Both the position numbers and the translations under genes were made by a program. A DNA stretch of 64,000 nucleotides from Craspedostauros australis. Its lineage: Eukaryota > Bacillariophyta > Bacillariophyceae > Mastogloiales > Achnanthaceae. Under the pieces are notes generated by a model that was given only the letters and a program-made list of their open reading frames with translations, ran no database searches and was not told where the DNA came from. The stretch is from assembly GCA_026770025.1 (NCBI GenBank), contig JAMXDE010000026.1, forward strand, positions 744,001-808,000, written 5' to 3'. Shown here piece by piece: positions 6,659-43,290 of this stretch (position 1 is its first letter; each line of letters opens with the position of its first letter).

Positions 6659-9008
6659 TTAGCTGGTCGCAGGCGCAGGCGAGTCAGAGACGTCCTTGGC
6701 ACCTGACAGCGATGCGAGCCTGTACATGCATCCAGCCGCAATTGTCAATGCTGCCGAAGAGACGCTGAGAGCCCCCTTCACGCCCAGCTTGGAGATGGAC
6801 AGGAACACGCTCACCACCAACACGTTCAGCGGAATGCCGAACAGGTTCATGATGACCGAGCGGTGAGAGTCTGATGAGAACCGCACAACAGGGGTTGCGC
6901 AGGGCATGGCATGTTAGAGCGTGTTGCAATTCCATGTTGATGAACGATTGGAGGTGATGAGAGGAGATCGGAGATGGAAGATACGAGCAGAATGAAAACC
7001 GCGTTAGAAGATATCAATGTAGAGGACAACATAATATAATACAATGCAATGCAGTGCAATGCAATACAATGAAGTCGAGTACGACTACTGCAGCATTTGT
7101 GGCACGGGCATGACATGTGAAAGAATGCAACGTACCTGGTAGGTATTTGGACCGCAGAGAACCGATGCTTGGGAAGTAGATGCCGACGCACGCCTCGAAG
7201 ACGAAGAAGGATGAGATCAGACCGGCAAGGCTCATGGTGGTGAACGTCGTGGCGGTGGCCCCGATCATGGCTGCAGCGGCGACCGTGAGCATGCCAGACG
7301 CCAGCTTTTCTGTGGGCACCCCCTGCTTGTTGAGGCGGCTGAAGACGGTGGAACCAAAGAGACAGGATGCCATGAAGCAGGAGAAGGCCGCGCCGTAGGG
7401 AGTGGCCACGCCTTCACCAAAGGATTTGGCCACGGCCTTGGCGATGGCCGGTGGCCACTGCAGGACGAAGATGTACATGGCAGCTTCGAAGAGGCTCTGG
7501 ACTCCACCGACCAGCATAATCTTGGGATCTTCGCGCACGACGTTGACGGCATCCGAGATGGTGAGCTTGTCGGAATCGCCGTTGGTTTGTTGCGCAGTGT
7601 TTTCCTTCCAGAGAATCGCGGTGAGCAATCCGCCGAGCAGAAGGCACACGGTAGATAGCTCGAATGGACCTGTCGGACCGCGTTGAGATGCGGCAACGCC
7701 CGCAAGTTGGCCAGCGAGAATGGCGACCAGCGAGTCTCCAGCATACGCCTGAAGGGGGCGATGAGATGGAGTTGTAGTTTAAGTCGAAGTCGCAGAATGG
7801 GCGTGGGTGTGGGTGTTGAACGACGTAGAGTGGTGTAGAGTAAGTGTACAGTGGAGTGGGCATGTGCTCGTATGTGTTAGGTGGAGGGATTGGATGAGGG
7901 GACATTTCGCAAAGGGAAAGGATGTTCGCAGACGAAACATCTCACAACTGTGCCATTGGTCAATTCATGAATTGCAGTACAATATCGGTCGGTCGGTCGG
8001 TCAGTCAATCGGTTGATTGAGAGAGATGAGTACGCAGAATAGCTTGCCGCATTGATGGTAGAGGCTCTGCCGCACTTTCACGATGCATGAATGCACGAGT
8101 GTACGCCTGTACGAGTGCGTGTAATATATATAATACAAAACCATACGTGCACATACCAATCCAAAGGTCTCCCCAAGGTAGGATCCATCAGGATCATCGC
8201 CAGTTCTCTGCGACTCTCCCACCAACCATGATTCTGGCGCGCTGAAGAGAAGGCTGGTGCCGATACCGCTCATAATCCTTCCGAAGAAGAGGACCTGCAG
8301 CATGGTGCTCTTGGTGGAGATGGCACCGATGGCGTAGATGAGGGAGAAGGCCATGGTGCCGAGCTTGCGACCGTACTTGTCCTGCGCGGAACCGACGGAG
8401 GGACCGAAGAGCGCCGTGGAGGCAAACCCCGTGAGGAAGAGCTTGCTGATGAGGCTGAGGGAAGCCGGGACGCCGTTGAAGATCTTGGAAGCGTAGACCT
8501 CATAAAAGTAGGGTCCCTGCAACCAGTCCGCGCATCTGAGCAACCAGAAGACGCTGAGGAAGCGGACCTGCCGGTCGCGCACGCTCTTTGGTTTGACCTT
8601 CTGGTCCGCGGCGTTGTCCTGATTTGAGAGGCCGTTGAGGAAGCGGAATCCGAAGGTCGCCATCGCGAGGGAGAGCAGGCAGGTGTTGAATAGGTTGGAG
8701 GGGGTGGCATTCCAGTTCCTGGCGGCAGTTGCGACCTTTGTGACCAGCGCCGTCGCGCCTCCACGAGGGATGGCATTGAGCGCGGTGGCGCTGGCCGCAG
8801 CAGAGTTACTGCGTCTGTGCGCTTTGGCATCCACATGTATCCTGAGGCTGTGGCCTCTGCGAAGCGCCGCTGCTGGTGGCGACGTGGCCAGTGAAGGATG
8901 CGGCATGCGGGTTCTCGCAGTTGCAGCATGGTGGAATGAGGCCACCGACGACATCAGCAGTGATGATGAGGTCACGAAGAGCGCGAGGAGCAGCCTGCCG
9001 TTGATCAT
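6659..9008 (-). CDS. MOT2/MFSD5-like major facilitator transporter, predicted plastid-targeted
   Basis: Three exons, 9008-8157, 7748-7136 and 6870-6659, with GT-AG introns (gtatgt...cttcag and gtacgt...catcag), giving 558 residues. The family fit is to the molybdate-anion/MFSD5 type of the major facilitator superfamily: the first membrane segment carries CADWLQGPYFYEVY, the loop between helices 2 and 3 carries QDKYGRKLG, then SGIGTSLLFSAPESW and GETFGLAYAGDS. The start at 9008 is chosen because it begins a signal peptide (residues 1-24) ending SSVAS before Phe25, a diatom plastid-import motif, followed by a Ser/Ala/Arg-rich transit-like stretch. The open frame extends further upstream but lacks that logic. 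Predicted location: plastid envelope. The family is known for molybdate transport in green algae; the substrate here is inference. Confidence 0.85.
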
Positions 9009-10290
9009 GGTTGCGCTGTGTTGTTGGTATTCTATATAATACAATGCAGTGGAGAGTACTCGTACCAACAGTATTTGTGGTGTTGGTGCTGGTGCTGGTG
9101 CTGGTAATGAGTATGGAGTAGTCGTACAGCACTTCCAATGCACAGGTCGTTGAGATCGAGAGTATGGGATCAAGCAGAAGCGGTGGATGGGTCGTAGTAG
9201 TATGTCCAGGTCGTCTGGGATTTGGAGGGATGTTCCATTGATGTGTCTCTCTCTGTGGCGGGAATGGTGGGAATGGCCGGAATGGTGCGTTTCTTTGGTT
9301 GAATCCACACAAAGATCTTCCGATCGCTGTCAACATCGATGTCAACCAACCGCCGACGAATCCTTCCCCGCGTGTCACGATGATGTCCCTTTCTCGACTT
9401 GTGCGGGTTGCGCAGTGTGGCACAGAAATAGCAGCCCATAACCCATTATCCCTTTCTCAGTCCTGTCCACGTTTCAACGAATGATGGAATGGCTGACGTC
9501 ACACCGGAACTTCAACGAACACCAACACGATGTTGAGCCAAACGGGCACCACGTTTTGGTTGGTGGGAAACTGGCTTGCTGTGGTCGTCCTGGTCGATTG
9601 GGACGAAATCGTGAAGAAACAAGGGCAGAAAAGGTCCCTGTTCGGGAGGACGACCCATCAACCTGCGTGCAAGCACGAGAGCTGCCATCGTGTGTTGAAC
9701 GCGCACAGCTCGTTCTCTCCGGTGCTATCATCGCCAGCCACATCAGCTCAGTCACCAAAGGATGATTGGAACCTCATCTGATGCGAGTACTTCCTGGAAC
9801 AACAACGACATCAACGACATCAACGACATCAACGACATCAATAGCTTCACGCTACGATTTGCACCATCTGCAAGCGCCTCAAACCTGCGGATAGAGTAGT
9901 TGAGACCCTCACCTATTCTTTCTCCAGAATCGTGCACCCGTTTCTGTCCGAGTCCAAACATAAAGCACCACATTACTAGTAGTACGACTACAGCGCAGAG
10001 GGACCCGTCACCCAAGACCAGTCTCCCATCCTTCATCGTTGATCCTGCATCCATCGATCCTGCATCCATTGATCCATCCTCGATTCATCGCGACTACCGG
10101 CAAAGCAGCTCGATACTTCATCGAGGTTCATTCCAAAGCAACAGTCATCTCACAAATCCCGACTCCAACCCACCGAACTCAACTTTCATCGCAAGTTCTA
10201 AACACGGCCAATCTTTCCGCTCTCCCATCATAGGTCATATTATACTCGAGAAGCAACTTACACAGGTCTTCCTGCAGCAACAATACGACA
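9009..10290. other. Divergent intergenic region (shared promoter region)
   Basis: The 1.28-kb gap separates the divergently transcribed MOT2-like and BCAT genes, so it should contain both promoters. It carries a GGTGCT-type microsatellite near 9075-9105, a 9-bp tandem repeat at 9804-9842 and a 15-bp duplicated motif (gatcctgcatccat) near 10040-10070. The sequence tcatattatactcgag lies about 60 bp before the BCAT ATG and could be a TATA-like element. No gene is supported here. Confidence 0.55.
9804..9842. repeat. 9-bp tandem repeat (aacgacatc)n
   Basis: Four consecutive copies of aacgacatc, the last ending aat. It lies in the shared upstream region of the MOT2-like and BCAT genes. Confidence 0.85.
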
Positions 10291-23408: not shown

Positions 23409-25055
23409 CTACTTCTGGACGCCCACCTCCTCGTCGCTCTCGCCAGAACTGTCGTGCTCCTCTTGGTTCAGCTTCTCCATGGCAGCAGTCTCCATGCGAA
23501 GGGCAGATTCGAAGATGCGGGCCTCGTCTTCGTCGCTGCAGGCGTTGATCTCCTCACGAAGATTCTTGATGTTGGACAGGATGCGCTCGCGACGGACGGA
23601 ATACGACTCATTCTGTGTGGCCAAGGCCTTCTGGAGGTCGAGGTATTCGTGTGGGACGGCAGCGGCACCGGCCTCGTTCACGAGCACGTTGGTTCCCAGG
23701 TGCATGTTGCGGTTGCTCTTGTGGTCTGGCTTCATGCCGGCAGCACGCTCTTCTGGGGTACCGACGTACACCTCATCGAGCTGGAAGCCAGAGATGGCTT
23801 TGTGGATGGAGGCAAGGACCCAGGCTCCGGAGCAGATACCGGTGGCTTCCAAGGCCAGACAGAGCTGGAGGAAGATGTACACCAGTGGGTTGGAGAGGAA
23901 GGCGATTGGGAAGACGGATGCGACCAGCTGCCAGGTGATGGAGGCGATGATGGTGGTGATGAGGGCTCCGAGAAGTCCGGTGTTGAAGAATTCTTGGGCG
24001 GTGTCAGAGACGTCGAAGATGTTCTCGCCTTCGCCCACCTCGACATCGAGAGTGGTGACACGGGCGATGATGAAGAAGCACATGGTCACGCAGACTTGGC
24101 GGCCGATCATGAATCCTGGGAGGTTGCGTCCCTCTCCACGGAAGAGAAGTTCGCAAGTCTTGCGGGCGATTGGGTGGTCTCCACGTTCATTCTTTGGGAG
24201 CTTGGCGACGGCGAAGAAGGCGATCTGCATACCCTCGAGCATGCCGACGATGGACATGAAGACGAAAAAGAGGATGACGGCGACTCCGTTTGGCACCCCG
24301 TCCCACATGGTGGTCTTTCCATCGAAGAGGGCGGCGAGGGTGACGGCCATGGCGTAGCACAGGATGGCGAGGGAGGCGAGAATGCGGCCCCAGTGGAAGA
24401 CATTCTGTACAGCATCTCGTGGTGCTTCCTTGGACTCGATTTCCTTGCCGGAGACCCAGACGAAGAACATCTGGACGAGGTAGCACGAGTGCAGAAGTCC
24501 GGAGAACTCGATGGCGAGGGCGACGTAGAGGGTGAAGACGGCGAAGTAGTTGTTGATGTAGTCAAGCATGCAGAGGGAGGCGTTGACTTGGGAGTTGAGC
24601 TGTCCAGCCATGGCCGTCATGAGGATCATGGCGACTCCGGACTCGAGGAAGATCTTGATCATGATGTCTGGGAATCCGAAGACCTCGGCATCTTCGAGTG
24701 GGGCACCGCACTGGTTGATGGTGAAGACCATGAGGAGGACCATGAACTGACGTCCCATGAGGTAGCGGTCGAGGTTGTCACCCTTGTGGGCGAGGGAGGT
24801 GCACTTGTGGCTGGTTGGATGGGATTCGACGTAGAGATCGCGGTCGACTGGTGGGAGACCGACGAGGGACCCCTGTCCTCCCTCCACCATGTTGAGCCAG
24901 ACGAGGGCCGTGATCATGACGATCAGGGCAACGGCTGGGTGGACCTCGGATGAGACCTTGGTCTCCTCGTTGAAGATCAGTCCACAGACGATGACGAACG
25001 AAAAGATGAGTAGTCCGGTGGAGTACACTGACTTGAAGAGTTGAAGGGGATCCAT
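23409..25055 (-). CDS. SIT: Silicon (silicic acid) transporter
   Basis: Single exon, 548 residues. SITs are Na+-coupled silicic acid transporters that feed silica wall formation; they act at the plasma membrane and internal membranes. Recognised from about ten hydrophobic segments and the two conserved motif pairs: EGGQGSLVGLPPVDRDLY with GRQ (GXQ at 59-61 and 101-103) in the first half, and EGMQ with GRQ (275-277 and 318-320) in the second half, an internal duplication typical of the family. Other matches: KGDNLDRYLMGRQFMV, CMLDYINNYFAVFTLYVAL. The tail (about 455-545) is hydrophilic and Glu/Lys/Arg-rich and probably a coiled coil. Length fits the family. ATG at 25055 is chosen because it directly precedes the first conserved residues; the open frame upstream is low-complexity leader. 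No intron. Confidence 0.97.
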   Translation of the reverse strand: MDPLQLFKSVYSTGLLIFSFVIVCGLIFNEETKVSSEVHPAVALIVMITALVWLNMVEGGQGSLVGLPPVDRDLYVESHPTSHKCTSLAHKGDNLDRYLMGRQFMVLLMVFTINQCGAPLEDAEVFGFPDIMIKIFLESGVAMILMTAMAGQLNSQVNASLCMLDYINNYFAVFTLYVALAIEFSGLLHSCYLVQMFFVWVSGKEIESKEAPRDAVQNVFHWGRILASLAILCYAMAVTLAALFDGKTTMWDGVPNGVAVILFFVFMSIVGMLEGMQIAFFAVAKLPKNERGDHPIARKTCELLFRGEGRNLPGFMIGRQVCVTMCFFIIARVTTLDVEVGEGENIFDVSDTAQEFFNTGLLGALITTIIASITWQLVASVFPIAFLSNPLVYIFLQLCLALEATGICSGAWVLASIHKAISGFQLDEVYVGTPEERAAGMKPDHKSNRNMHLGTNVLVNEAGAAAVPHEYLDLQKALATQNESYSVRRERILSNIKNLREEINACSDEDEARIFESALRMETAAMEKLNQEEHDSSGESDEEVGVQK

Positions 25056-28951: not shown

Positions 28952-30475
28952 TCATGCCGACGAGGACAAGCACATCTGTCGCGGACTTGACATTTGGCAC
29001 AGACGGAACATCTTCTTGAAGATGTTGCCCGTGCCAGCCACATGCGAGAAGCTGCGGTGCTGCCGGAACAGCTCCAGCGTGGAATTTGTGATGGAAATGA
29101 ACTCCTGCGGGCTGACGAAGGGTCCATGACGGATGTTGGGACGATCAAAGCAGCAGCTGCTCGACATGAGATCCGGCACGTCATGCATCACGCGCTTGCC
29201 ACCCAAGTCTACGTCGTCGTACCTCTTCTTGTGCGTCTCCAAAGTCACCTGCGACACATCCGACGCAATCGAAATGGGTTGGCCACGATGCGGAATGATG
29301 ACGGACGAAGAGAATCGACCAGTAGGTGCTGGCTGCAGCGCATGCCGCACCAAGTAGTGCACGTCGCGCATGTGCGGCAGCTCGTCGGCCTCGGTGTAGT
29401 AGAAGAAATCAAACTCATCCTGGCTGTACACATTCTGCCGCAGCAGCTCCTTCGCCATGACCGATGTGCCGTACGTCAAGCGATCGAACGACCGCAGATC
29501 CTTGATGAGCTGCACATCGTACAGATACCGATTGAGACCGCTGCTCTGCGCGACGTAGGCGTAGTCGGATGGATCTCCCACGAATACGACGGCATTTGGG
29601 AACACGGCCGCCACCGTCTTGACCGTGATGTTGAGGAACAGCTGGTTGCGTCGCAATGCTGGGCCGTTGAGCTTGGCCGCGTAGTACGCTATGATCGCCA
29701 AGGTGTGTCCGTTGCGTTGCTTCGAGGCGTTGTTGTAGAAGCCGTTGCGCTCGTAGTCATCCTGCATGCCTTCCAACAGCTGGATCGTGTCGCCCAGCAG
29801 CTCCGCGCTCCTGCCCGTGATCTTCTCGTAGTACGACAGATGATGCACGAAGAAATCGAACATGTCGACGGCTTGTAGATTCCAGCTCTTCGCGCTCATT
29901 GCGAAGTGACCAAACTCTAGGTTTATATTCTCCGCTTCGTGAAGATGCTGCAGGCTGATGCGGCCGTTGCTGAGCAAGCGGTTGACGGTGACGAGCCACG
30001 CGGCCGAATAGCCATCGCTGGGCTGTTCTCGCGTCATGCCAGTAAACCGTTGCGTGCTGTCGTCCGTTGTGGATGGCGCAGCAGGAAGCGTTCTCATGTC
30101 GACGATCCCGTCTTCGTTGTCTTCGTATGACACCCCACGACCCTGCAGCAGATTATCCCTGCTGCACCCTGCCATGAACCGCTGCGGTCTGTGGCCTGTC
30201 GAGAAGTCGTGGATCGCGTCGAACGGTGGCATCTTCAGCACGCCCGACAGTCCTGACTGAGTGGCTTCCGGCCATTGGGAGCGTGTGGCTGTGGCTGCGT
30301 TACCACCCCCCTTGGACGACGTGATGATGACATCAGGGACATCGAAGAGGTTGGATATGAAGCGGAGCGATGAGATCTGCGCAAGGCTGAGGAAGATGGC
30401 GATCGCAAGGACCGTCCGAAGGATCGGACTGACCGACCAAGGGGTCGATGATGCTGAAGCTGATACTGATACGAC
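28952..30475 (-). pseudogene. Type II membrane glycosyltransferase-like gene, body, separated from its start codon by a transposon
   Basis: 508 codons are open from 30475 to the stop at 28952, but no ATG occurs before residue ~80 of this stretch. The first ~80 residues contain a signal-anchor helix (RTVLAIAIFLSLAQISSL), so the true start must lie upstream. It does: codons 1-6 are at 40093-40076, on the far side of the 9.6-kb element, and join in frame. The intact product would have 513 residues: a short cytosolic tail, one span, and a luminal domain including FVGDPSDYAYV and FDFFYYTEADELPHMR. The 'TEAD' acidic motif resembles the metal-binding region of Golgi glycosyltransferase families, which suggests but does not prove nucleotide-sugar transfer. 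No internal stop or frameshift is seen, so the disruption looks recent. Internal initiation at MPPFDAIHDF would lose the membrane anchor. Confidence 0.75.
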
Positions 30476-30477
30476 TA
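30476..30477. repeat. Target-site duplication TA, left
   Basis: TA immediately outside the left terminal inverted repeat, matched by TA at 40076-40077. TA duplication is the rule for the IS630/Tc1/mariner superfamily. Confidence 0.75.
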
Positions 30478-30527
30478 CGACCTCCAGGTCGCAGTTGATG
30501 CACTCACGATAACACTAGTTGTGGAGT
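30478..30527 (+). repeat. Left terminal inverted repeat, 50 bp
   Basis: Starts CGACCTCCAGGTCGCAG and ends GTTGTGGAGT. Its reverse complement recurs at 40026-40075 with one mismatch (second base). Similarity ends abruptly on the inner side, where the sequence becomes AT-rich. Confidence 0.9.
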
Positions 30528-32692
30528 GTTTTTTGAGTTTTACTCGTGATGAGTCGTGATAAAGTAGACTAAATTAGAGCACACCCAAAACCATCCAAAC
30601 AACTGCTTATGATGTTATATCTCAACAACGCACCATTTAAAATTAAAACTAGACAGTTCATTCGGACGCTTGGCTATCGTTTATTCTGAATATCTTAGTT
30701 AAATTTGTATGAACTTTATTTTTAATGTCGTTTTGGCTTGCTGTCTGTCAGGTGGTGGGTGCAAAAAATTCTCGATGGCACCATGCTGCCCTACCTTCAG
30801 CACCCATGATCATCATTATCATCCCTGGCATTTTCACAATCTGCGCACCACACTGGCTCCGGATACCCCCCATCTATCCACTCCATGAAGATCCTGCGCA
30901 GATAGCCGCATCTCATACTCCAAACTGTCCCTGCACTGAAACGCAGAATTTTCGAACACCCGATTCCGACACGGATGCCGTTCGGATTTGGATCCGTATC
31001 TCGTCGATACGATCCTTGCAGCTCCTTCACATGCCCCTCATGCGTTCCCACATTCTCTGGCGACACACTGATGTGTTCAGAATGGGTGGGGCGCTCATAC
31101 CTCCAAAGGTGCACCTCCATGTGATGATGCCATCATGATGTTTTTCCGACACCCAAAAAAATCCCTTTCGTGTGCATCCCAGGCTGCAGCCTCTTCCAGA
31201 CCGTATCTGCGCAGGATACTTCGCCATGGCCATCTTGAGTTGATTCCTAACACATCTTGAATGGGTGGTTTGGCGATATGGGTGACTTTTCAATGGCACC
31301 CATCACCAGCGAAGTCACGTGATGTGTCCGCCGCCACCCGCCAAAAAACTCTTGCCCGCCACTTGTTTCTTGCGGAGGGCACCTTCCAGGCCACCCCCGA
31401 CCCTCAAACTTCGTGTGCATCTTCACCGTATCCTCTTGGATACGTCTTGCCCATCCATGGTCGTTGGAATGGCCTGTGCATTCCAGGCAGAGACCATATC
31501 CAATGAGCATATTTTCCTCCGAATCGTGCCGTGTGCGCGTGGGCCTGCCACGGCCCCAAATAAGCCAAGATGACATCCCGCTCTCGCTCATCCACCAAAC
31601 TTTCCATGGCGGTTCCGCCTATGCCCTCAGATCTTGCACTGGACCGCTGGTTGTGGCAGTGCCGTCGATGCCATTCGACAGCGCTTGTGGAGTTTTGTTG
31701 TGTTTCTCCATTGTCGTGTTGTTGTGTTGTGTTTGGTGTTCTCAAACAGTTTTTGCTGTTGGGGGCCATGGAGATTAATCACAATTCTACCAAATGCGCC
31801 CATCAATGAGAACACTTTGCGAGTCCCGAATTGCACCTCCATTCCACAACGACACAGCGAAGGCACAAAATCCTCCTCACAAAATGGACAACGGAAACAT
31901 TGCGCATCTGCGACGAGCTGCTGTTGATTCTCTGCTGCTTGTAGTCATAGCTTACACAGAATGTAGAATGACTGTGACCTTCCCACAAAGGAAAGAGTGG
32001 ATGGTACAAGGCACCTTGTGACCATCCTCCTGTGTTGTTCATGCCGTTCTGTGGTGCGCTGCGCCGTGCTGCGCGTCAATGACTGGTGCTGTGCTGTGCT
32101 GTGCTGTTCTCCTTGTGTGCCTGGTGTGCGTCGCGACCAGCCAATCTCGTACAATCAGCTTGCAACCTCTATTGACACACAGCTAGTATTCACCATGAGT
32201 TCCCTTGTTGTTAGACCATGTGTGCTGAATCAATCCAATCGTTGTTCGAGTTTTGAGTCCTTTGTGTCAGTCACACTTCGTTTCGAAAGATCCAAGAAAA
32301 CTACTCGATAGAATTCGGAAAATGTGATGCGGGTTTCAGACCCAAGACAAAATTAGGAAGATGATCCAAGAGGATCAAAGAGACTCTATTAGACCTCCAA
32401 ACATGTGTCATTGCACATGTTTGGACACAGATACACTAATTAGCAAGAGTAACCAGAAGTTTGGCATGGTTACAACACGATGGACAATGGTGAATAGCAC
32501 CATTAGTGGAGCCAAGAAGTAGAAAACAGGAAGATGATGAGCTCTTATTGATGAGCTCATAATCTCAACAAACTTAACTTTGTAAACCATCACTTCAAAC
32601 AAGCACACACAATAACACAGTTCTATCAACCTTCACCAACATTGGACGTAGTTGTATCATCCCGCAACCACTGAACTCTTCACCTCGCAAGC
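30528..32692. other. Left arm of the transposon, mostly non-coding
   Basis: The first ~200 bp are AT-rich and contrast with both flanks. The rest has many short overlapping frames without recognisable domains. One minus-strand frame (31944-31627, no ATG near its start) contains a Cys pattern RCPFCEEDF...LCRCG that could be the relic of a zinc-binding protein. A hairpin-forming sequence (ccaaacatgtg, 6-base loop, cacatgtttgg) lies at 32397-32424, about 270 bp before the transposase ATG. Confidence 0.5.
32397..32424. repeat. Perfect inverted repeat / hairpin upstream of transposase
   Basis: Arms ccaaacatgtg and cacatgtttgg around a short spacer (tcattg). It could be a transposase-binding site or transcript hairpin; function is not shown. 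Confidence 0.7.
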
Positions 32693-35239
32693 ATGCTGCG
32701 CGCTGGTGACTGTGTGAAGGTGGCATCCCACCAGAGCTCAAGCGGCAGGGTCCATGACCTGGGCGTATGTCATGTTGATTTTGCAATGAAGCAGACCACG
32801 GACGGCGCTACAGTCAAACGCAATGGGCCTCTTGCACCAGGAGAGGTGGCAATGGTCATGGTGACCCCAGTGATGGGGCAGAGCCGAATGTATGTTGTTC
32901 GCGAGGATCTGTGCACACCACACAGCCTCGCTACCTTCGCACGGACTCGCACTGCTGGAGGCCTTGCTAAGCCTTCCCTCCTTTCTCCCCAGCATCACTC
33001 CGTCGCTGCCACGCGTGTCAACAACAAGGCTAAGCCCCCCACACCATCCCCAACTACCACAGAATCGCAAGAAGCCAAAATCGCCGCTTTTCTCGAGGTC
33101 TCGCGGCGTCAGAAAGCAACAGCAATCGCCCAGCTCACGAACCAGATGAAGAAAGGCGCGAAAACAAAAGGATGGTTGCGAAAGGATGGAGGGCATAGTA
33201 TTGCTAAGCCTGGTAATCCTAGCAAGCGCCTTGACAAAGAAGACAATCGGAACTACACTGTTCTCTATTTCAATTTGGGTGGGATTCCTGAACATGCAGA
33301 GTTGATCGCCCATGCATGGGGTATCAACCGCACCACAGTGGGGCGCAACATTGTGAAATTCCAAACGGAGACGCTCGAATGCAAGAAGCGAAGTGACGCA
33401 GGCAGCAGCATCTTCACCTGCCCCATCAAGCAACGACAGTACTTCACGCAGCGCGCAGCCTTTGAGAAACAACTACGTCTTCGACATCCAGAGCAACAGT
33501 TCAAGAACGACGAAATTGCTTCTGCCTATGCCTCTGCTTCGCCGGAAGAGCTGGCATCCGCAAAAGCGCTGGCTGATTTGTGGTTGGAGCGTGGTCCCTT
33601 CCTGCAATTTGAGCTCCAGGATGTGTTGCGACGGTGCAATGGCGCAATCTCGTGGGACAGAATTGCATGGAAACTGGCAGGCAGCGGAAACCCGCAAGTC
33701 GTTGGTCCGAAGTGTATTCGCAAATTCGTCATGGGATTGGAAGGCAGTGAGTACCGTTCTACAACAATACTCCCTCTGATCAATGGCACCACTACAGCAA
33801 AGCGCGACATCTGGGCTCAGGACTTCTGTGTGTTCTGGGAATCAGCTGAGCTGTTTGAGAATACGCAAGTTGTCCTTGTCCACATGGACGAAAAGTGGTT
33901 CTACTCCATTGTCGCTCGCATGCATCTGAAACATGTGCCCCAGATGGGAGTTAAGCCTGTGAAGCAGACTGTGCATCACAAGTGTCACATTGACAAGACC
34001 ATGGCAATTGCATCAACAGCATTTGCCCCAACAAATAACTGTTTTGCGAAAGGAGGAAAGGCGTATAAGGTGAACTTCGAACGTGTTGGGCGCATGGTCC
34101 GAGCGCAGAAGACCACGTACAAGCGAACTTGGGTCTCGCCGACCAAGTACAAGCACCTTCCTGATCCCAAGAAAATCTCTCGCAAGAAGGGTGAACTGTA
34201 CTTCCAACCACTGGAAATCACGGGCAGCAAGGAAACAGATGGTCATCGTGTTAAGCCCAAGCCGAAGTACAGCCTCAAGAAATTCTTCCGCGAAAAAGAA
34301 CTCCCCGCACTGGATTCGCTCGCCAGCAAAATCAAGGCCGAAACCGGAAAGAACGTGGTGATTCGGTACCAGATGGATGGCGCAGGGCCACACAGAGACA
34401 CGGAGCTACTTAGATTCATCAACAAGGAGTTCGACAGTCGCGGATGGCACTTACGACTGCAACCACCAAATTCTCCCATCACGAATGTGAAAGACGATGC
34501 GATATTCCCAGCGATGTCAAAACACGTGTCAGCATATCAAGGTGAGCACCATGGAAGCCGATTGCTTACCACTGAGGCATTGTGGAATGCTTGTGGAACC
34601 TGTTGGAAACAATTCAAGCTGGACAAGGTGGCTAGCGCGTATGTTCGCCACCATCAGATTGCCTACGCAATTTGTGCTGCAAAAGGAGGTGACGAATTTG
34701 TGACGGAGCGCAAGGGACTGCACATGAATGTGCGGAAACAAACGTCCACGGAATTCGACAAAGAGGGCAACAAGATCGGCGTTACCGTGTCTCACACGGA
34801 CTTCGTGTTGGAGGAGGATGAGGCTACCCGCGCGACCACCAACAAACCAACTGCAACAGACAACAAAGGCAAATCAGCTGACTTCAAATACGCCAAGCCC
34901 GACATCAAAGGTATGTACGATGATGCGCTCAAGGTGATGGCTGTCAGTGGACTGCAGTGCCTGAAAACGAATCTGCCAACAACCAGCAGCCTCATTCCGT
35001 TGCTGGAGAAGCAAATCGTTGCGACAACCAGAGCCAACGAGGAGGCTGAGCAACAGAAGAAAGACGAGAAGAGAAAGAAGCAACCCAGCAAGAGCAAAGC
35101 CGACATCATTGAGCCTTGCAACAACAACAGCAAAGCCAAAGCAGCACCCACCATGAACACATTCGAAGTGGCCATGTTCGTTGGCAAGGACGAGCATCAC
35201 AGCAAAGCAGAGCAGGATACCAACACAGCAGAGATGTAG
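32693..35239 (+). CDS. Tc1/mariner-superfamily DDE transposase, long form
   Basis: Single open frame of 848 residues. An N-terminal region of ~230 residues is followed by a helix-turn-helix-like segment (HAELIAHAWGINRTTVGRNI) and the catalytic core: first Asp in VLVHMDEKWFYS, second in IRYQMDGAGPH, third in QPPNSPITNVKDD. The DEKWF and NSPxxNVxD motifs are those of the mariner-like group that also includes plant elements. Spacing between the second and third acidic residues is 38 or 39 depending on which Asp of the DD pair is used. The enzyme should cut at the terminal repeats and reinsert at TA. At 848 residues it is roughly twice the usual mariner transposase (~350-500); the extra length is the N-terminal part, an insert between the first and second Asp, and a Lys/Ala-rich tail. 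No stop or frameshift, so it may be active. Confidence 0.9.
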   Translation: MLRAGDCVKVASHQSSSGRVHDLGVCHVDFAMKQTTDGATVKRNGPLAPGEVAMVMVTPVMGQSRMYVVREDLCTPHSLATFARTRTAGGLAKPSLLSPQHHSVAATRVNNKAKPPTPSPTTTESQEAKIAAFLEVSRRQKATAIAQLTNQMKKGAKTKGWLRKDGGHSIAKPGNPSKRLDKEDNRNYTVLYFNLGGIPEHAELIAHAWGINRTTVGRNIVKFQTETLECKKRSDAGSSIFTCPIKQRQYFTQRAAFEKQLRLRHPEQQFKNDEIASAYASASPEELASAKALADLWLERGPFLQFELQDVLRRCNGAISWDRIAWKLAGSGNPQVVGPKCIRKFVMGLEGSEYRSTTILPLINGTTTAKRDIWAQDFCVFWESAELFENTQVVLVHMDEKWFYSIVARMHLKHVPQMGVKPVKQTVHHKCHIDKTMAIASTAFAPTNNCFAKGGKAYKVNFERVGRMVRAQKTTYKRTWVSPTKYKHLPDPKKISRKKGELYFQPLEITGSKETDGHRVKPKPKYSLKKFFREKELPALDSLASKIKAETGKNVVIRYQMDGAGPHRDTELLRFINKEFDSRGWHLRLQPPNSPITNVKDDAIFPAMSKHVSAYQGEHHGSRLLTTEALWNACGTCWKQFKLDKVASAYVRHHQIAYAICAAKGGDEFVTERKGLHMNVRKQTSTEFDKEGNKIGVTVSHTDFVLEEDEATRATTNKPTATDNKGKSADFKYAKPDIKGMYDDALKVMAVSGLQCLKTNLPTTSSLIPLLEKQIVATTRANEEAEQQKKDEKRKKQPSKSKADIIEPCNNNSKAKAAPTMNTFEVAMFVGKDEHHSKAEQDTNTAEM

Positions 35240-36598
35240 CTGCAAATCAAAGTAGTAGTATTATATGTTATAGGCACACCTGTGATTGGAGTGCCTGTGT
35301 GCACATCGTCTGTTTGATGGCATGGAGGATTGTGATGTGTGATGTGTGGTGTGTGGTGTGGTGTGTGGTGTGGTGTGGTGTGGTGTGGTGTGGTGTGGTG
35401 TGGTGTGGTGTGGTGTGGTGTGTGATGTTTGTTTTGTGTTTTGTGACGAGTGGTGTGAATTGTGTGACGCGGACCGTATTTTTGTGTCGTGAATGGTGTG
35501 CGTCGTGGAGCCATCGCGTCGTGGAGCCGGCACGTTGTGTTGTGCCGTTCTGGTCGGAAAATTTCCATCCGAACCACACACAAAAACGCTCCAAGGCCTC
35601 AACTGCGTCGATCGGAGCGCCAGCACAATCGGTGTGTGTCGCACAAACCAATCGAATGGCAAAGCCTCCTCTTGGTTGGTACCGCACTCGTACATCTGTA
35701 CCACATCGTGCCATGCCAGTATTCCGCTTTCTCTTCATCACACATGTGCAACCCTCGCGATCGTTGCTGCCATCAAGTCCAAGCGTCTGTACTCGTCACT
35801 GGAGCACCAACGATGCATCCTCTGATCATTCATCTCTGCTCGTGCCCTGCCGACGGCGCTGCCACTAGCACAATCGTCATGTATTGGTAGAGTAGAGTAG
35901 AGTAGAGTAGAGCGCAACGAATCCACACCATACCATGCTCATATGCTATACTATGCTATGTTGTGATGTGCTAGTGCAGCTCCTATAATATGTTACATTC
36001 GATGAGCTATTCCGTCGTCTGCGTGCTGAAGACGAACACGCAGGATGCCCCCTTCTGCAGATACAGACGTTCTGGGTAACCAAACGTGGCATCACCGAGT
36101 CTTCGTTTTAGTTCGCACATAACGTTTCCTCGCTGAGCTGGCCTCGAACAAGACAAGTTTAGAATACTCGACGAGTTGTACGACAAGAACGCAAGTGCAC
36201 TCGTATGGATGTCTGGACGGAGTGGTTGAAACTGTAGTCAAGTTGTGTGGTTCATCTTCGGATATGCTCCCTTGAAGTCATGGGCAAAGGTACCATATCA
36301 TGCTATACTAGCACATGGAAGTACGAGAATGCACAACTGGCAAGGCGCAGCACAGCACAGGATGCAAACGATTGTTCCATGACTGTATTGTAACATGTAT
36401 TCTATTCTTCGATCATCGTGCCATATGCAACGATGGAGTTGAGTTGAGCCATTCGTTCTGAATATGGATCGCATCCATGCTGTCTTGCCGCTGCGGAAGA
36501 TGCGACCGTATGAGCATGGGCGTACATGTGGATACGTTGTGATGTTTGTACTCCCACTCCTGTTCGCGCCCTGAGAGTGCGGTCAGCCATTTCATTTT
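35240..36598. other. Transposon spacer with microsatellites
   Basis: Separates the transposase from the 3' end of the passenger gene. Contains the GTGTG satellite (35337-35432) and an (agagt)n run (35887-35913). Open frames on the opposite strand through the satellite encode only His/Thr/Pro repeats and are not genes. Confidence 0.6.
35337..35432. repeat. (GTGTG)n / (GTGTGGT)n satellite
   Basis: About 95 bp composed almost entirely of gtgtggtgtg units, 100 bp after the transposase stop. Confidence 0.9.
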
Positions 36599-39321
36599 TC
36601 AAGAGCATGCATCGTTATTTTGTCCAGGGCAGTCGTTGGATGGGCTGTCGATGGTGTAGGTCCAGCCAGGAGAGCCGCTGCACATGTCTGTCGCCATGCA
36701 GTCCTGACAGTTGCTTGGAGCCGCGCAGGTGTTCGCCGCCACGACCAGATCATCAACCGCCAAGTTGGAGTTTGCAACACCGTTACAGCTGTCTTGTGAC
36801 AAGCATGTGCCACTGCCGATGGTGATACAACCGAGAGTCTTGAACGGGTCAGCGTGAACATTCTGACTAGCGCGTTGTCCCTCACAAGCGTTCATCCCCA
36901 CGTCGATGTTGGCAAGCGTAGGTGTGGCGATACTGGGAGACTGGTCGGCGCAAATTCCAAGGCCTTTGCAGCCGTCCCCGCCATTTCATCCTGCGTGTTG
37001 GGTCCAGATGTTACCATAGATGTTCTGCCCAAGATTCTCGCAGCTGTTTGTGCTGGTTCATGCGGCTGGCCCGATGATCTGGTAGCCAATGGTGGCCGTG
37101 GCACTGGGAGGGCTGGAAAAAGATCCAAGATTCTTGCAGGATTTTGGTCCCAGACAGCTGCTGAGGATGATGGCATCCTTCGAAACCTCTTCGCAGGAAC
37201 TATCACTTGCACATGAGTCCAGGGTGATGATGATGTCGCCCCTGAGAGTCCAACCGAGAGTTCCTCAGCGGCAGGCCCCGCCCACAGCACCGCATCTCGT
37301 GGATAGGCTTGCGGCGTTCGCAGTGAGAAGGATGCCATCGCCTTCGAGAGCAGTGAGGATGGCTGCGATTGCTTGGGGGTCATTCTTGATGCGATCAAAT
37401 CGTACCTGCGCCTGTTGCTGCGACGTCCGGCTGCCTTGGTCGTCATCGCATCCGAAGATGCTTTTCACGAACCTGTCCTTGTTCGTTGGGAGAGACTCGT
37501 TGTTGTTGACGAATTGTGCGCATGTGCCCACATCATCATCGCAGAGGACGACTTGTCTGGAGGTGAAGCCCGCAGTAACCTCCCCAGCCTCATTCAAGCA
37601 AAGGGTCTGCAGGGTGGTCTTGTTGATGGTTGGGGAGTTTGTTGGAACAAAAGTTGACAGATCGGATGGCTGCTCTGTCGGAATCATCGTTGGGGTATCG
37701 CTTGCCAGCGGAGAAGGGGGCGAAAGTTGGGCAATCTGTTGGGCGTTGGTCTTTGTTGATGCAGAATTGATCGACCCTTTTCACTGGTTGGGTCGCCATC
37801 GACGTCTTTGGGGCAGGCGACGGCAGCATCGTAGATAATGAAGACTTCGTCGCTGTCGCAGTTGGTTTTTGTCATGCATTCGTAGCATGCGCCGCTGCTG
37901 TCACAGCCATAGTCTGGCACAATGATGTCAGTTGTCACTGAGTCACCGAATCCCAATCCCGGGCAAGCGTAGGCTGCGGCGCAGGCATTGTCGCCGATGC
38001 TCAAGCTGCCCTGAATCTTCGCAGGTGATGGCAACGATGTGCATGTGCAGTCGTAGTAACCGCTCGCATGTGCTGCGGTGCATGCATATTCACCAAGGCA
38101 TGCGTTGAACCCAATTCTGACGTGGCTCTGGGAACGGCTGGGCCCGTACTGTTCAACGCGGTAGCCAACGCTCGCACAGGCGTAGGGTCCAACGCAGGCG
38201 CCGCTTTGTATGATGGCGTCTCTGTAGGAGTATGTGCCAGCAAGGACGCAGGAAAGATAATCAGTGCAGGCCAGTTGACCAATGAAGGTGACACCGTATG
38301 TTGGGTGAGGACCATAGCAATTGGAAACATAAAGAGAGTTCATGCCGGCGCATACCCCTTTGCTGGTACAGGATGAAGCCAGGACCAATGTGTTTCGTCC
38401 CATCCTGTCGCAAGATCCAGACCCAATGCAGGCAGTGGTGGCAATGGTCATGAAACTGTAACCGTCGGCGCTGGTACAGTGATACTTCTCTGCACAGCTT
38501 GGAGCCCCAGCGTCCTGGCACATGTAGTAGATGTCCTCGCCACCGAGAGCTGTGAGCAGAGTGGTGCCGGCGGCGGACAATAGCTTCAGCTCCTCAGCTA
38601 GCAAGGGGCTGGACGCATATCGGTTGAATAGCTTGTGCGCATCCCCCTCGGTCAAGAGGCCAGCGCATGCAAAGTAATTCTGCAATCCTGGTGTGCTTCG
38701 AACAGCAGTGACGGCCTTGCGGTACGATGTCTTGGATGGATTGCAGATGATGGTCTTTGGCTCGGATGCCTCCGGCAGAAAGCATGGCGGCGCAACATCT
38801 GGCTCGCAGGCCACGGAGATGCTGGAATCAAATGCAAACGAGATGGTTGTCGGTGCAGATGTAGGCCCTGATGTCGGCATGCTGGTTGCTCCGCCTGTTG
38901 GCTGGTCAGTCGGTGATGAGGTAGGCCTCAGGGTTGGATTGCTGGTCGGCAAGGCAACTGGCCGCCCAGTTGGCCTTGAAGTTGGTGCCCCAGTTGGTGG
39001 CAAGGTTGGTGTAGAAGTCGGTGTTGTCGTCATTATTCAGGCCAACGCAGTTGGTGCCAATGTAGGAGAGCTGGTAGGCGAACTGGTTGGTGCCACACTG
39101 GGATTGCTGCTTGGATTGTTGGACGGTGCTCCCGTCTGTTTGTTACCCTTGACGTTCTTTGGAATGAAACCGCCGTCGCCCTTCAGCAGTCTGGTTGCCT
39201 GCATCGCAACATGAAGTTCGTTGGTTGGGTCAATCAATCTATGGCCGCGAAGGATGGCATCGATCGTCTTGCATTTGGCGAGCAAGATCGCCGTGATGGT
39301 AACTGCCTTGAAGTTGAGCAT
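36599..39321 (-). pseudogene. Secreted CX5C-repeat, Pro/Thr-rich protein gene, decayed
   Basis: Reading from 39321: a signal peptide (MLNFKAVTITAILLAKCKTI), a PT/PS-rich linker, then a Cys-rich domain made of repeated CX5C units about 20-35 residues apart (for example ACIGSGSCDRMG, ACTDYLSC, ACVGPYAC, ACLGEYAC, ACAAAYAC), another PT-rich linker, and further CX5C units up to PGQNNDACS at 36599. The frame is broken: TGA at 39039-39037 in the first linker; a one-base shift in a short AAAAGGG run near 37775-37781; then, in the final frame, TGA at 37267-37265, 37060-37058 and 36988-36986. The last two sit at the first Cys of a CX5C unit. Function unknown; the architecture suggests an extracellular or surface protein. 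It is a passenger inside the transposon. Confidence 0.75.
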
Positions 39322-40025
39322 CTTCGGTTTCCACGTGATCTTTGCTTGGTTGTGGTTTGCTGGAATGCTGTTTCTTTCCTCTCGAATTTGGACAAGCGGT
39401 TTACTATTGCTCGTATTTGCTTCGAGGCTCCTTCACACTCGTGGCTGGATCGGTACTTTCGGTTGTGTTGATGTCGTCCCTTGCGCCTTGGCGTTCATGC
39501 AGGAGGATCGTGCTGCACGGTTGCGCAGGATGCATACCGTACCACGTTGATCATGTGCGCACCGCATGTTATCGGAGAAGAAAAATGGAAACAGCAACAG
39601 TGGCAAGAATGTGGATTGGCTGAGCTGTGCATGCATCATTCACAGGATTGGCAGCCGAGGTGAAGACGATGTTGTGGTGATTGGCGAAGCACTGTCGTCT
39701 GCGTCGTACAGATTGCCAATGCGCTTCGTTGTATTCCGAGACGATTGGATGTTGCTGGTTTCCATTGTGAGACTGGTCAACGTGGAGTGTTGTTGGCTGT
39801 CCTGGCCTGGCACATTCTGTTGTCGCCGCGCGCAGTCATCATCTTGTCTTGCGGAGGAAGAGTCACACGATGTCTCTTCCTCTGTTGTGACTCGTTTCTC
39901 ATGACGTGGAATACGTTCCCTGTGACGTAGAAGACGGATCAGCGAGAGCAAACACACAATAGCTCTAAATATCCAATCGCCGTTTCTCCCAAAAGCAAGC
40001 AAACCAGTGACAACAAGGGGCCAAA
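39322..40025. other. Right arm of the transposon, non-coding
   Basis: Between the passenger gene start and the right terminal repeat. It should hold whatever promoter the passenger gene had. No coding pattern or further repeat noticed. Confidence 0.5.
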
Positions 40026-40075
40026 ACTCCACAACTAGTGTTATCGTGAGTGCATCAACTGCGACCTGGAGGTAG
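40026..40075 (-). repeat. Right terminal inverted repeat, 50 bp
   Basis: Read on the minus strand it starts CTACCTCCAGGTCGCAG; identical to the left repeat except for base 2 (T instead of G). Followed outward by the TA duplication. Confidence 0.9.
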
Positions 40076-40077
40076 TA
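40076..40077. repeat. Target-site duplication TA, right
   Basis: TA immediately outside the right terminal repeat. It forms the last two bases of codon 6 (GTA) of the interrupted gene. Confidence 0.75.
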
Positions 40078-40093: not shown

Positions 40094-41241
40094 GTTGGCA
40101 TCGCCGTATCCGTGCACGCTCTTTCAGCAGTCCAGAGAGGTCTAATCATGGGCTTGTGACTGCATGTCTGTTCCGATGTGTTGCCTTGTTTGGCGCCAAT
40201 TTTCGGAGACTCATTTTGTTGGCTTTCGTTTGGTTTCTTTGTCGATGAGACGGCTGAAGGTGAGACTGGTCGTTGTCGGGGTGAGATACACAGCAAATCA
40301 AATATATCATCTCACTTTCTTCGGAAGTCTTTCTCATCGTCACCGACATGGTCGCAGAGCACATGTTGGAAGGGTCATCGGCACAACACTCAGAAGGAGC
40401 CTTTGGAGGTCGCTGGTGGATACGATTAGAGTGTACAGCAGAGAGGTGTGTACTCGCATGGTTGGCATTGCCCTCCGACCGACCTCTTCTGCTACTCGTA
40501 CTTGACCCATCGCCTTCCGAGGGTGCGATCAAGCATGCGATCAAGTAGGCGATCATAGGAGCGGATGTGTCTGTCTTGCCTTCTGTTTCTCTGTTTGCAT
40601 TGACGACTCCTGCCTTGATGTATTGTTGGTAGTTCGCACTCCGCCCATCGCCTTCCGAGCGTGCGACCTTGCATGCGATCATAGCATGCGAACAAAAAAG
40701 CGGACGAGTATTACCGCTTTGGCTGTTCGGTCCGTGTGCGTGAAAGCAAAGAACATCTGTGGAAGTAGAAGGATGAGTGTCAGAGTGCGTGGTACGAGTA
40801 CAGCGTGTGCGATGGGGGACGATACAGCACCAATGCGTACGAAACGGTACGAAAGGGTACCCCTACCGATGGTTGACACCTCAGCTGCCCACTATCATCG
40901 CCACGGACGCAAATGACAAACGTGGTGCAAATGCCACCACGACTTCACTGATGAGTGCGATCAAGAGATTGTTGCTGCAGAGAAGCGAAGTTGCTCTCTC
41001 TGCCTCGCCCAAGATTGATCTTGTTGACATGCCTGAAATCGTTTGAAACATCTTATTTCCTCACCCTCACAATACATCAACAACATCATCCAGTGACCAC
41101 CACCACTTACGATCTCGAGAGACACACACAGAGAGAGAGAGAGCCCAAGTTGCGCAGGTGCCATTCACATCTTCGTCGCTGGTGCGACCGACGCACAGCC
41201 CAACTACACAGCCGCAGCCGCAACCAAATTCATACCCAACA
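40094..41241. other. Divergent intergenic region
   Basis: This 1.15-kb region lies upstream of both the interrupted glycosyltransferase-like gene (minus) and the LRR gene (plus). A ~40-bp imperfect direct repeat (cccatcgccttccgag, then gatcaagcatgcgatca or accttgcatgcgatca) occurs at 40507-40556 and 40647-40686. A (ga)n run lies at 41128-41141. No gene supported. Confidence 0.55.
40507..40686. repeat. Imperfect direct repeat pair, ~40 bp
   Basis: Two copies, at about 40507-40556 and 40647-40686, share cccatcgccttccgag and tgcatgcgatca-type palindromic cores in the same orientation. They could be cis-elements or remnants of a small repeat. Confidence 0.6.
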
Positions 41242-43290
41242 ATGGATGAAGAGACAACACGTGATGCGTCTGCTACACTGCCGCCACCAATCCCTGCTGT
41301 GTCCACTGCTCCCATTGCCCCCGCTGCTACCACTGCCTCAACCGCGTCTGAAGCAGAACTGCAAGCACAAAGGATAGCTGAAACGCAAAGGGAATTGCAT
41401 AGGATTTCGCGACTGTTCCAAACTCAAACGCCAGGACATCCACACAACCCTGATGATAGCTCAGAGAATGAAATCGATCTTCCAGATGCAGTTCCAGAGG
41501 TCGTCCCTGAAAATGGTGATAATCCTGCAGGATGGAGCTGGAAAGGTGTTGTGACTGTGGTGTTGCTCGTCGTCGGTGTAGCCGGTGCCACTGCAGCAGG
41601 AGTAGTGTTCTCCCCCAGTGGCGAGAACAGCAGCAACAGCAACATAGATGGCAGCAGGAGTAATCCGCCCACCGCAGATGGCCCCCATGATCGGCCATCA
41701 CAAAATCCAACCCACACACCCACGGATATACCGAGTGGTCTGCCCTCGGATATACCGAGTGATCTACCCTCGGATGTACCAAGTGATCTACCCTCGGATG
41801 TACCAAGTGATCTACCCTCGGATATACCAAGTGATCTGCCCTCGGATATACCGAGTGATTTACCCTTGTCGAACCCAACTCACACACCCACACATATGCT
41901 GAGTGATCTACCCTCGTCGAACCCAACCCTCACACCCACGCATATACCGAGTGATCGACCCTCACAAAGTCCAACCCACACACCCACACATATACTGAGT
42001 GATCTACCCTCGTCGAACCCAACCCTCACACCCACGCATATACCAAGTGATCTTCCCTCGTCGAACCCAACTCAAACACCCACGGCGATACCAAGTGATC
42101 TACCCTCAGATATACCGAGTGATCGACCATCACAAAGTCCAACCCACACACCCACACAGACACTGAGTGATCTACCCTCGTCGAACCCAACCCTCACACC
42201 CACGCATATACCGAGTGATCGACCCTCGCCGAACCCAACCCTCACACCCACGGATACACCGAGTGATCTACCCTCGTCGAACCCAACCCTCACACCCACG
42301 CATAAACCGAGTGATCGACACTCGTCGAACCCAACGTACAGCTTCGATCAATCGAATGCTTTCTTCACCATTTGGGAGGTGCTCGCGCCCATACTCCAAG
42401 AAGAGCCTACTTTCGTCGATACAGCTATACTCGCCAGCACAATCAGTACCGCGCATCGAACGCTGGACTGGATGGCAAACAGCAATCACCCATACCTCAC
42501 ATCAATGATCGCGGAGGATGTACAAGCCAATACCATGAGCCTACTGAAGTACTATGCAGTTGCGAGCATATACTTTTCACTCGATGGAGCCAATTGGAAC
42601 GACAAGATGGGCTTTCTATCAGATGCTGACGTGTGCGACTGGCAATCTTCCTCTGGTGGTGTGACATGCGTTGATGGTCATGTGGTAAAAGTAGCTTTGG
42701 GTGACAGAAACATGCGGGGCACGCTCGATCCGGCCCTGTATCATCTCTCACACCTTGAGAAATGGTCAATGGAAATGAATTTCATCACTCGCGGACAGAT
42801 CGATGGTATCATCTTCAGTCATATTGGCATGTTGAGCATGCTCTCAGAGCTAACTCTAAAATACATGGGACTGCAAGGTGCGTTTCCGTCACAAATGTAT
42901 CAACTTCCACAATTGACACATCTTGACCTGGCTGCCAACCACTTCGCTGGACCCCTTCCTTCTCAGATTGGTCGATTGACAGCTTTGCGACATCTTGGCC
43001 TGGAGAAAAATGCCTTCATTGTGCGTCTTCCATCCGAGATTGGCCAACTCACAGCTCTCACCACTCTTGATCTAGGATGGACTGACTTCACTGGGCAGCT
43101 TCCATCCGAGATTGGTCAACTCACAGCTCTCACCACTCTTGATCTAGGATGGACTGACTTCACTGGGCAGCTTCCATCCGAGATTGGTCAACTGACAGCG
43201 CTCACCTTGCTTGATCTATCATGGAACAGATTCACTCGGCCACTTCCAACTCAGCTTGGTCTCCTCACATCATTGAAAAACCCTCTGTAA
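41242..43290 (+). CDS. Single-pass leucine-rich-repeat protein with PSD/PT minisatellite
   Basis: 682 residues from MDEETTRD at 41242 (the open frame extends upstream without an ATG). Order: Pro/Ala/Thr-rich N terminus; one membrane span at about 100-122 (GVVTVVLLVVGVAGATAAGVVF); a PSD- and PTHTP-repeat stalk (about 147-368); a folded segment (ILASTISTAHRTLDWMAN, ASIYFSLDGANWND, VCDWQSSSGGVTCVDG) typical of the N-cap before diatom plant-type LRRs; then about seven LRRs of the LPSEIGQLTALTTLDLGWTDFTGQ type. Two of these LRRs are a near-exact 72-bp tandem duplication. The protein stops abruptly at LTSLKNPL in the middle of the next repeat. A GT-AG intron (cctct|gtaaac...tttgcag, ending at 43356) could carry it on, but the next base pairs belong to the 527-bp element. 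Probably a surface receptor-like or adhesive protein; ligand unknown. Confidence 0.8.
   Translation: MDEETTRDASATLPPPIPAVSTAPIAPAATTASTASEAELQAQRIAETQRELHRISRLFQTQTPGHPHNPDDSSENEIDLPDAVPEVVPENGDNPAGWSWKGVVTVVLLVVGVAGATAAGVVFSPSGENSSNSNIDGSRSNPPTADGPHDRPSQNPTHTPTDIPSGLPSDIPSDLPSDVPSDLPSDVPSDLPSDIPSDLPSDIPSDLPLSNPTHTPTHMLSDLPSSNPTLTPTHIPSDRPSQSPTHTPTHILSDLPSSNPTLTPTHIPSDLPSSNPTQTPTAIPSDLPSDIPSDRPSQSPTHTPTQTLSDLPSSNPTLTPTHIPSDRPSPNPTLTPTDTPSDLPSSNPTLTPTHKPSDRHSSNPTYSFDQSNAFFTIWEVLAPILQEEPTFVDTAILASTISTAHRTLDWMANSNHPYLTSMIAEDVQANTMSLLKYYAVASIYFSLDGANWNDKMGFLSDADVCDWQSSSGGVTCVDGHVVKVALGDRNMRGTLDPALYHLSHLEKWSMEMNFITRGQIDGIIFSHIGMLSMLSELTLKYMGLQGAFPSQMYQLPQLTHLDLAANHFAGPLPSQIGRLTALRHLGLEKNAFIVRLPSEIGQLTALTTLDLGWTDFTGQLPSEIGQLTALTTLDLGWTDFTGQLPSEIGQLTALTLLDLSWNRFTRPLPTQLGLLTSLKNPL
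41680..42345 (+). repeat. Coding minisatellite, PSD/PT stalk
   Basis: 24-bp units (gatctaccctcggatgtacc type, PSDLPSDV) are followed by 48-bp units (aacccaaccctcacacccac..., SNPTLTPTHIPSDRPS). Variation between units is mostly single-base. It encodes the extended stalk of the LRR protein. Confidence 0.9.
43027..43170 (+). repeat. 72-bp tandem duplication of one LRR unit
   Basis: 43027-43098 and 43099-43170 differ at one base (ggccaactc against ggtcaactc); a third, diverged unit follows. Confidence 0.95.

Follow-up and report, generated by a model that had tools for sequence, protein, structure and literature searches.

Host DNA nested inside a predicted autonomous mariner-like transposon of the diatom Craspedostauros australis

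Why does a mariner-like transposon in a diatom measure 9.6 kb? The question is raised by a 64,000-nucleotide stretch of the Craspedostauros australis genome (C24:744001-808000, hereafter the window), for which the original prediction reported such an element with exact ends and a passenger gene and suggested a new class of large mariner. By comparison across the genome (74.8 Mb in 90 contigs), we found that the size of this element is accounted for by segments of captured host DNA, which are predicted to have entered in nested steps. We consider it highly probable that the element belongs to an autonomous, cut-and-paste, TA-targeting mariner-like lineage that took up host DNA repeatedly and so grew from about 4.8 to 9.6 kb. 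Its features are collected in Table 1; element coordinate 1 (el) is window position 30478.

Table 1. Features of the transposon and of the gene that it interrupts, in window coordinates (TIR, terminal inverted repeat; ORF, open reading frame; NAGS, N-acetylglutamate synthase)
Feature	Position	Strand	Basis
Whole element, 9598 bp	30478..40075	+	End reading; genome copies of like length
Left target-site duplication, TA	30476..30477	.	Sequence reading
Right target-site duplication, TA	40076..40077	.	Sequence reading
Left TIR, 50 bp	30478..30527	+	49/50 vs right repeat
Right TIR, 50 bp	40026..40075	-	49/50 vs left repeat
Backbone, left part with transposase gene	30478..35640	+	Common to the copy classes read; unmatched in three donor loci
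Transposase, 848 codons, D399/D562/D601	32693..35239	+	ORF; genome relatives; motif conservation
Capture 1 scar: 3′ end and 3′ flank of host NAGS locus	35641..36105	-	L072 4434-4083 and 3893-3786, 81-84%
Capture 2 scar: piece of host PIMT locus	36094..36400	+	L076 1742-2020, 78%; common to PIMT-type L071, L073
Capture 3: whole PT/Cys-rich protein gene with flanks	36436..39694	-	L068 6423-3514 and 3520-3244, 89-91%; left edge L068 6426
Decayed PT/Cys coding region, homologue codons 4-919	36602..39348	-	Stops at 107, 697, 766, 790; frameshift near 547
Capture 1 scar: 5′ part of NAGS coding region	39695..39829	-	L072 2200-2066, 75.6%
Backbone, right end	39830..40075	+	Adjoins left backbone in cargo-free L066
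Interrupted host gene, main part (signal-anchor protein)	28952..30477	-	ORF and flank joining
Interrupted host gene, first six codons	40076..40093	-	Flank joining; paralogues without insertion

In a cargo-free, transposase-only relative of 4.8 kb (L066), the left and right parts of the backbone lie side by side at the site where the window element bears its cargo. The extra stretch of about 4.2 kb in the latter (window 35641-39829) consists of pieces of three other loci, with NAGS outermost, PIMT inside NAGS and a gene for a PT/Cys-rich protein innermost: NAGS 3′ (el 5164-5628), PIMT (5617-5923), PT/Cys (5959-9217) and NAGS 5′ (9218-9352) are followed by backbone. The three donor-like loci (L068, L072 and L076) have no match to this backbone. 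Alongside them, the genome holds the 4.8-kb cargo-free element, 7-kb elements with NAGS and elements of about 9.5 kb with PIMT set in NAGS (NAGS::PIMT). Because a 4.8-kb transposase-only relative exists and about 4.2 kb of the window element is captured DNA, the size is not inherent to a class; what survives of the proposed new class of large mariner is its TA-targeting, its transposase gene, its exact ends and its many near-identical copies.

The outermost layer is best read in a 7-kb copy, L059, and likewise in L065 and L070, where the PT/Cys gene is absent and another segment occupies the same place. In L065 this segment reads as NAGS (TIGR01890, 233 bits vs a cut-off of 202.85), and it recurs with an adjoining transposase match at eight loci (C52, C72, C33, C31, C38, C1, C10 and C64). 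The host NAGS locus, L072 (C24:206000-212500), has an 891-codon frame that scores 351 bits and includes the acetyltransferase domain, with neither an inverted repeat of at least 25 bp nor element backbone. Positions 5238-7606 of L065 are collinear with 4435-2068 of L072 at 88.6% identity; since this match includes about 400 bp 3′ of the NAGS stop codon, the capture took place at the DNA level. Capture via mRNA was rejected, as flanking non-coding DNA is included in the captured NAGS and PIMT/PT pieces. At the left NAGS junction the element and the host have TGCACAAAC in common, and the same junction is found in L065, L070, L071 and the window.

The middle layer is displayed by L071 (roughly 9.5 kb, with a second element interrupting its right TIR) and L073 (read without its left end), in which NAGS remnants flank both sides of a 2.8-kb segment with a PIMT fragment (PF01135, 7.5e-8). 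Thirteen near-full copies of this segment are present at 94-100% identity, each with a NAGS remnant alongside. The donor-like L076 (C2:2150600-2157400) matches it at 81-83% over positions 1742-4661, and no NAGS match, backbone or inverted repeat was found in this locus. The second element in L071 (9621-9951, C77) has the same orientation and starts inside the right TIR, at a TA within that repeat.

The innermost layer, a segment that matches L068, is found in the copies of the window, L060, L067 and C40 (L082), where it replaces the larger part of the PIMT segment along with some of the right NAGS remnant. The donor-like L068 (C13:871200-879200) has an intact 919-codon frame, and neither inverted repeats of at least 25 bp nor backbone were found in it. 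Compared with this intact homologue, the window gene has one frameshift and four stops, so the passenger gene of the original prediction is present as a decayed copy of a host gene, in minus-strand ORF fragments; the window cargo is a passenger without a working reading frame. Among the matches listed for this cargo, 46 loci lie at 73-100% identity and 56 at 42-49%; a search of 5.8 billion protein sequences, with the 8000 best candidates scored, gave no PT/Cys-like protein at E 0.001. Over its final 117 bp (window 39578-39694 vs L068 3360-3244) the PT segment is 97% identical, compared with 89-91% overall, which hints at later gene conversion. A PT/Cys relative of 48% identity (L069 79-4434; C41:474600-479400) has an open frame of 952 codons that includes DUF7640 and PT repeats. 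It lies in a unit with long inverted repeats starting TGTGACAAGATGG and with what may be a 4-bp duplication (ATTG); the genome has 34 matches to the repeat end, and this type is perhaps a second transposon family carrying the PT/Cys gene family.

The transposon is genuine and its ends are exact. Both the 50-bp inverted repeats and the flanking TA duplication were confirmed where the original prediction had placed them (Table 1), and the search of the assembly that it had proposed returned many near-identical copies with the same ends and TA on both sides. The left 100-bp end has at least 40 scored matches, 30 of the 40 at 100% identity (the window's own included), and at least 42 matches were listed for the right 250-bp end, the copy counts from these genome-wide searches being lower bounds. 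From the listed left and right matches, 36 end pairs were assembled, with lengths of 6994 and 7048 bp, 9302-9762 bp (28 copies), 10208 bp and 16959-18781 bp (five); 25 of the 36 measure 9.5-9.7 kb. TA stands on both sides in all 27 copies read at both ends (26 plus the window), which represent about 26 independent sites since C61b is probably the C75a locus, and also in six more that belong to other lineages or classes (L059, L060, L065, L066, L067 and L070). The flanks of the 26 read copies are mutually unrelated, save for C61b/C75a, the C75 pair, one 46-bp match and a local repeat at C27. In a comparison covering 27 of the 30 right-end loci (all except C75a and both C61 loci), the right 1.74 kb is 98.1-100% identical in all pairs, and that of the window is identical to C42, C34 and C27 at printed precision; because of this likeness, we infer that the family amplified recently, in a burst. 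A chance repeat was rejected in view of the perfect left-end matches and the TA flanks, as was an assembly artefact, given that many contigs carry the unit amid unrelated flanking sequence and that paralogues of the insertion site are empty exactly at one TA. A misassembly of the window element is accordingly very unlikely on sequence grounds. At C75:2641-22014 two elements stand head to head, 51 bp apart, near the contig end, and C61:7830-17787 has the same arrangement, probably as the same locus. The five end pairs 17-19 kb apart (C42, C54, C17, C16 and C5) have extra DNA at differing places relative to transposase and cargo and, judged from their end positions, are probably nested insertions.

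Joining the window flanks with one TA gives an open frame of 513 codons from ATG-AGG-AGG-TCA-CCA-GTA (MRRSPVVVS), with stops upstream and a hydrophobic segment from residue 28 (best 19-residue mean hydropathy 2.0). The frame restoration claimed earlier is hence borne out in its open frame and hydrophobic segment, with the length corrected from 508 codons. No Pfam or NCBIfam match was found for the 429-codon main part of this gene. The joined flanks of 21 of the 27 sites (all except C18, C6, C7, C61b, C75a and C75b) were searched for empty sites, the best 40 candidates being scored per query, and matches spanning the junction were obtained at five: the window, C22a, C27, C34 and C47. Four paralogues span the window junction at 91-92% (three in C40, one in C29), with weaker ones at 79-86%; over 200 bp, two of the window-site paralogues reach 95% and 94%, with one TA, the element exactly absent and a 6-bp difference nearby. 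Within the 100-bp query, six spanning loci for C34 and ten for C47 show 100% identity; one of each, compared over about 200 bp, is ungapped at 99.0% and 98.5%, respectively. Matches reach 90% for C22a and 95% for C27, the latter in a local repeat. The sequences identify these empty sites as paralogous rather than allelic. As paralogues of the rejoined host frame exist, the insertion is read as having broken one member of a gene family. Adjoining the insertion, an ORF with PT-type repeats and leucine-rich repeats occupies window 41158-43290 (+).

The transposase ORF is intact, with 38 residues between D562 and D601, and has at least 53 scored genome matches at 82-100% identity, 45 of the 53 lacking an internal stop. 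For ten pairs drawn from five lineages, the ratio of nonsynonymous to synonymous substitution rates (dN/dS) lies at 0.30-0.41. The search of 5.8 billion proteins gave four relatives, among them P0001, with 43% identity across 73% of the query; D399, D562 and D601, a triad named from motif and conservation rather than structure, are unchanged in both of the relatives whose sequences span all of them, P0001 and P0002. P0001 matches PF01498 (HTH_Tnp_Tc3_2) at 0.0037, below the cut-off of that family. The genome yielded no match to PF13358 (DDE_3), and the transposase was not found in the viral contigs searched. As in Tc1/mariner elements, there are a TA target-site duplication, terminal inverted repeats and a triad spacing within roughly 34-41 residues. 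The motifs HMDEKWFY and NSPxTNxxD presumably resemble those of plant mariners.

The histories of transposase and cargo differ. In a DNA tree of 14 transposases picked by cargo class (for C51, C48, C31 and C72 the class comes from match lists), the NAGS-only copies are spread over three positions and the PT copies over two clades; uniting the five PT copies in one clade was rejected by the approximately unbiased (AU) test (p 1e-54), as was uniting PT plus PIMT (p 0.0003). C40 and the window, which belong to different transposase clades, have the same PT junction sequences on both sides. Because the two histories conflict while C40 and the window share breakpoints, cassettes have probably moved between transposase backbones, the simplest reading being one PT capture followed by exchange.

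We posit cut-and-paste movement by the element's own transposase, with self-mobility and autonomy predicted from the intact transposase, the ends and the copies. A break or gap inside the element, perhaps arising from excision, may have been repaired by copying unrelated loci through synthesis-dependent strand annealing with template switching, partly at short homologies. Every new capture would have replaced the middle of the preceding one, and recombination would later have carried cassettes from one transposase backbone to another. When a DNA transposon excises, double-strand breaks are left behind, and their repair by synthesis-dependent strand annealing can introduce foreign filler DNA, of 1-123 bp in the cases described, according to the accessible text of PMC4423477; the same repair acting within the element, with longer copying, would explain its anatomy. 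We also lean towards a broader view, in which an autonomous lineage captures host genes repeatedly at one interior place, each replacing the previous core, and trades cassettes, as a modular gene-carrying transposon like the cargo transposons of bacteria.

Several observations weigh against this account. Donor and element pieces differ by 3-24%, so that the true donors may be related to, rather than identical with, the loci read. The PT segment carries, at its left edge, roughly 35 bp that the donor-like loci do not account for, and the matches at its right edge abut without overlap, which fits microhomology repair less well. On the transposase trees the cargo-free L066 and L079 group with NAGS-bearing L070; a loss of cargo in their lineage retains some small probability, and the view that it never had cargo draws on the clean L066 junction, not on the tree. 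On the protein tree, where resolution is lower, the well-supported branches force two NAGS changes and only one PT change; cassette exchange is less well borne out there than on the DNA tree, the only one to show a clear conflict. The joined-flank search of the genome, with which the proposed empty allele was sought, recovered paralogous sites with a single TA and no empty allele at the window site. Pfam gave no match to the window transposase, and no PDB chain of transposase kind was found for it, the sequence search returning one chance-level glutathione transferase (E 0.51) and the profile search nothing. Because Pfam and PDB offer no match, the name mariner rests on TA, TIRs, triad and motif likeness and is plausible; the intact mariner-type transposase of the original prediction stands as an intact 848-codon protein with its triad, with no profile match behind the family name.

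Of the other routes by which such an element could have arisen, capture by fusion, whereby two neighbouring elements and the host DNA between them moved as one and the inner TIRs were lost, has been described for Pack-TYPE elements (in the accessible part of PMC8903248), and elements do adjoin here, as in the C75 pair and at the right TIR of L071. We nevertheless hold it to be quite improbable, as the inverted repeats of the window element include no inner TIR, and the captured pieces share a single interior site, some of their junctions showing short homologies; in L066 this site is unoccupied within one element. That the internal segments are instead later insertions of other transposons could be suggested by the 17-19 kb pairs that look like nested insertions and by the distant PT/Cys relatives (42-49% identity), one of which lies inside the inverted-repeat unit of L069; it is very improbable, given that the donor loci show no inverted repeats of at least 25 bp and that the NAGS and PIMT pieces are a partial gene plus flank.

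The scatter of cargo states across the transposase tree might alternatively reflect independent capture of the same genes in each transposase lineage, a proposal that is scarcely credible in light of the PT junctions common to C40 and the window and the left NAGS junction common to L065, L070, L071 and the window. It is also unlikely that the cargo was selected as a functional transposon gene. A 617-codon NAGS frame is open in C52, C72 and C33, the dN/dS of host NAGS vs C52 is 0.34, and the PT/Cys gene was taken whole with its flanks; however, that ratio cannot separate constraint on the host branch, the acetyltransferase part of element NAGS is in a different frame than in the host gene, stops interrupt the NAGS copies in C10, C64 and C1, and the window PT gene has its frameshift and four stops.

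Among known systems, this element is most closely comparable to the Pack-Mariner of rice, which likewise has host coding DNA between mariner-type TIRs, the target-site duplication of the superfamily and newer DNA placed more internally (PMC8903248, accessible part). The NAGS, PIMT and PT/Cys pieces supply the host coding DNA between TIRs by which Pack-TYPE elements are recognized. According to the same text, Pack-TYPE elements are non-autonomous by definition and lack a transposase, and Pack-Mariners are mostly low in copy; unlike them, the present element retains an intact 848-codon transposase, has at least 25 copies of 9.5-9.7 kb, and has three nested captures with likely donors and intermediates in the genome. 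The PlantMar (DD39D) group of Tc1/mariner, found in plants and some oomycetes at 2-6 kb, resembles it in its TIRs, one transposase with a DDD triad and stramenopile hosts, and the 4.8-kb L066 would fit its size; the diatom element differs in the 38 rather than 39 residues between the second and third D, the 848-residue transposase, the lack of a profile match and the 9.6-kb length (PMC7325037, as far as its text was accessible). Turmoil-1 of C. elegans, which also bears a transposase and took in two coding sequences, belongs to the Harbinger superfamily, with the sequences within its long inverted repeats and one complete copy (PMC2572040, accessible text). The giant eukaryotic transposons reviewed in PMC6431247 share cargo beyond transposition genes but are, in the part available, mostly far larger and of other superfamilies, the term Tc1 not occurring in the main text. 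An autonomous mariner-like element with serial capture of host genes in a diatom was not found described in the open-licence literature searched, which is weak evidence as most subscription papers lie outside it. We therefore regard the autonomous, serially capturing element as a variant of the Pack-Mariner kind, new relative to the known non-autonomous forms.

Gene pick-up by transposons is usually guessed from end products. Here, likely donors exist alongside an unoccupied acceptor, intermediates of two classes and the finished element; this makes the order and junctions of three captures readable, and suggests that a mariner-like element can retain its transposase, double in size and still spread. 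For diatom genomics, it would represent a recent vehicle that moves whole genes and interrupts others.

Across the 64-kb window, Rfam at gathering thresholds gave no match. The window also includes a silicon transporter gene (PF03842) at 23448-25055 (-). Silicon transporters are typical of diatoms; PF03842 has 88 matches genome-wide, 32 of them rows above 760 bits and 28 of these without an internal stop, and it exceeds the cut-off in none of 14 control genomes, which supports the diatom assignment of the original prediction; the set seems to be a very large expansion.
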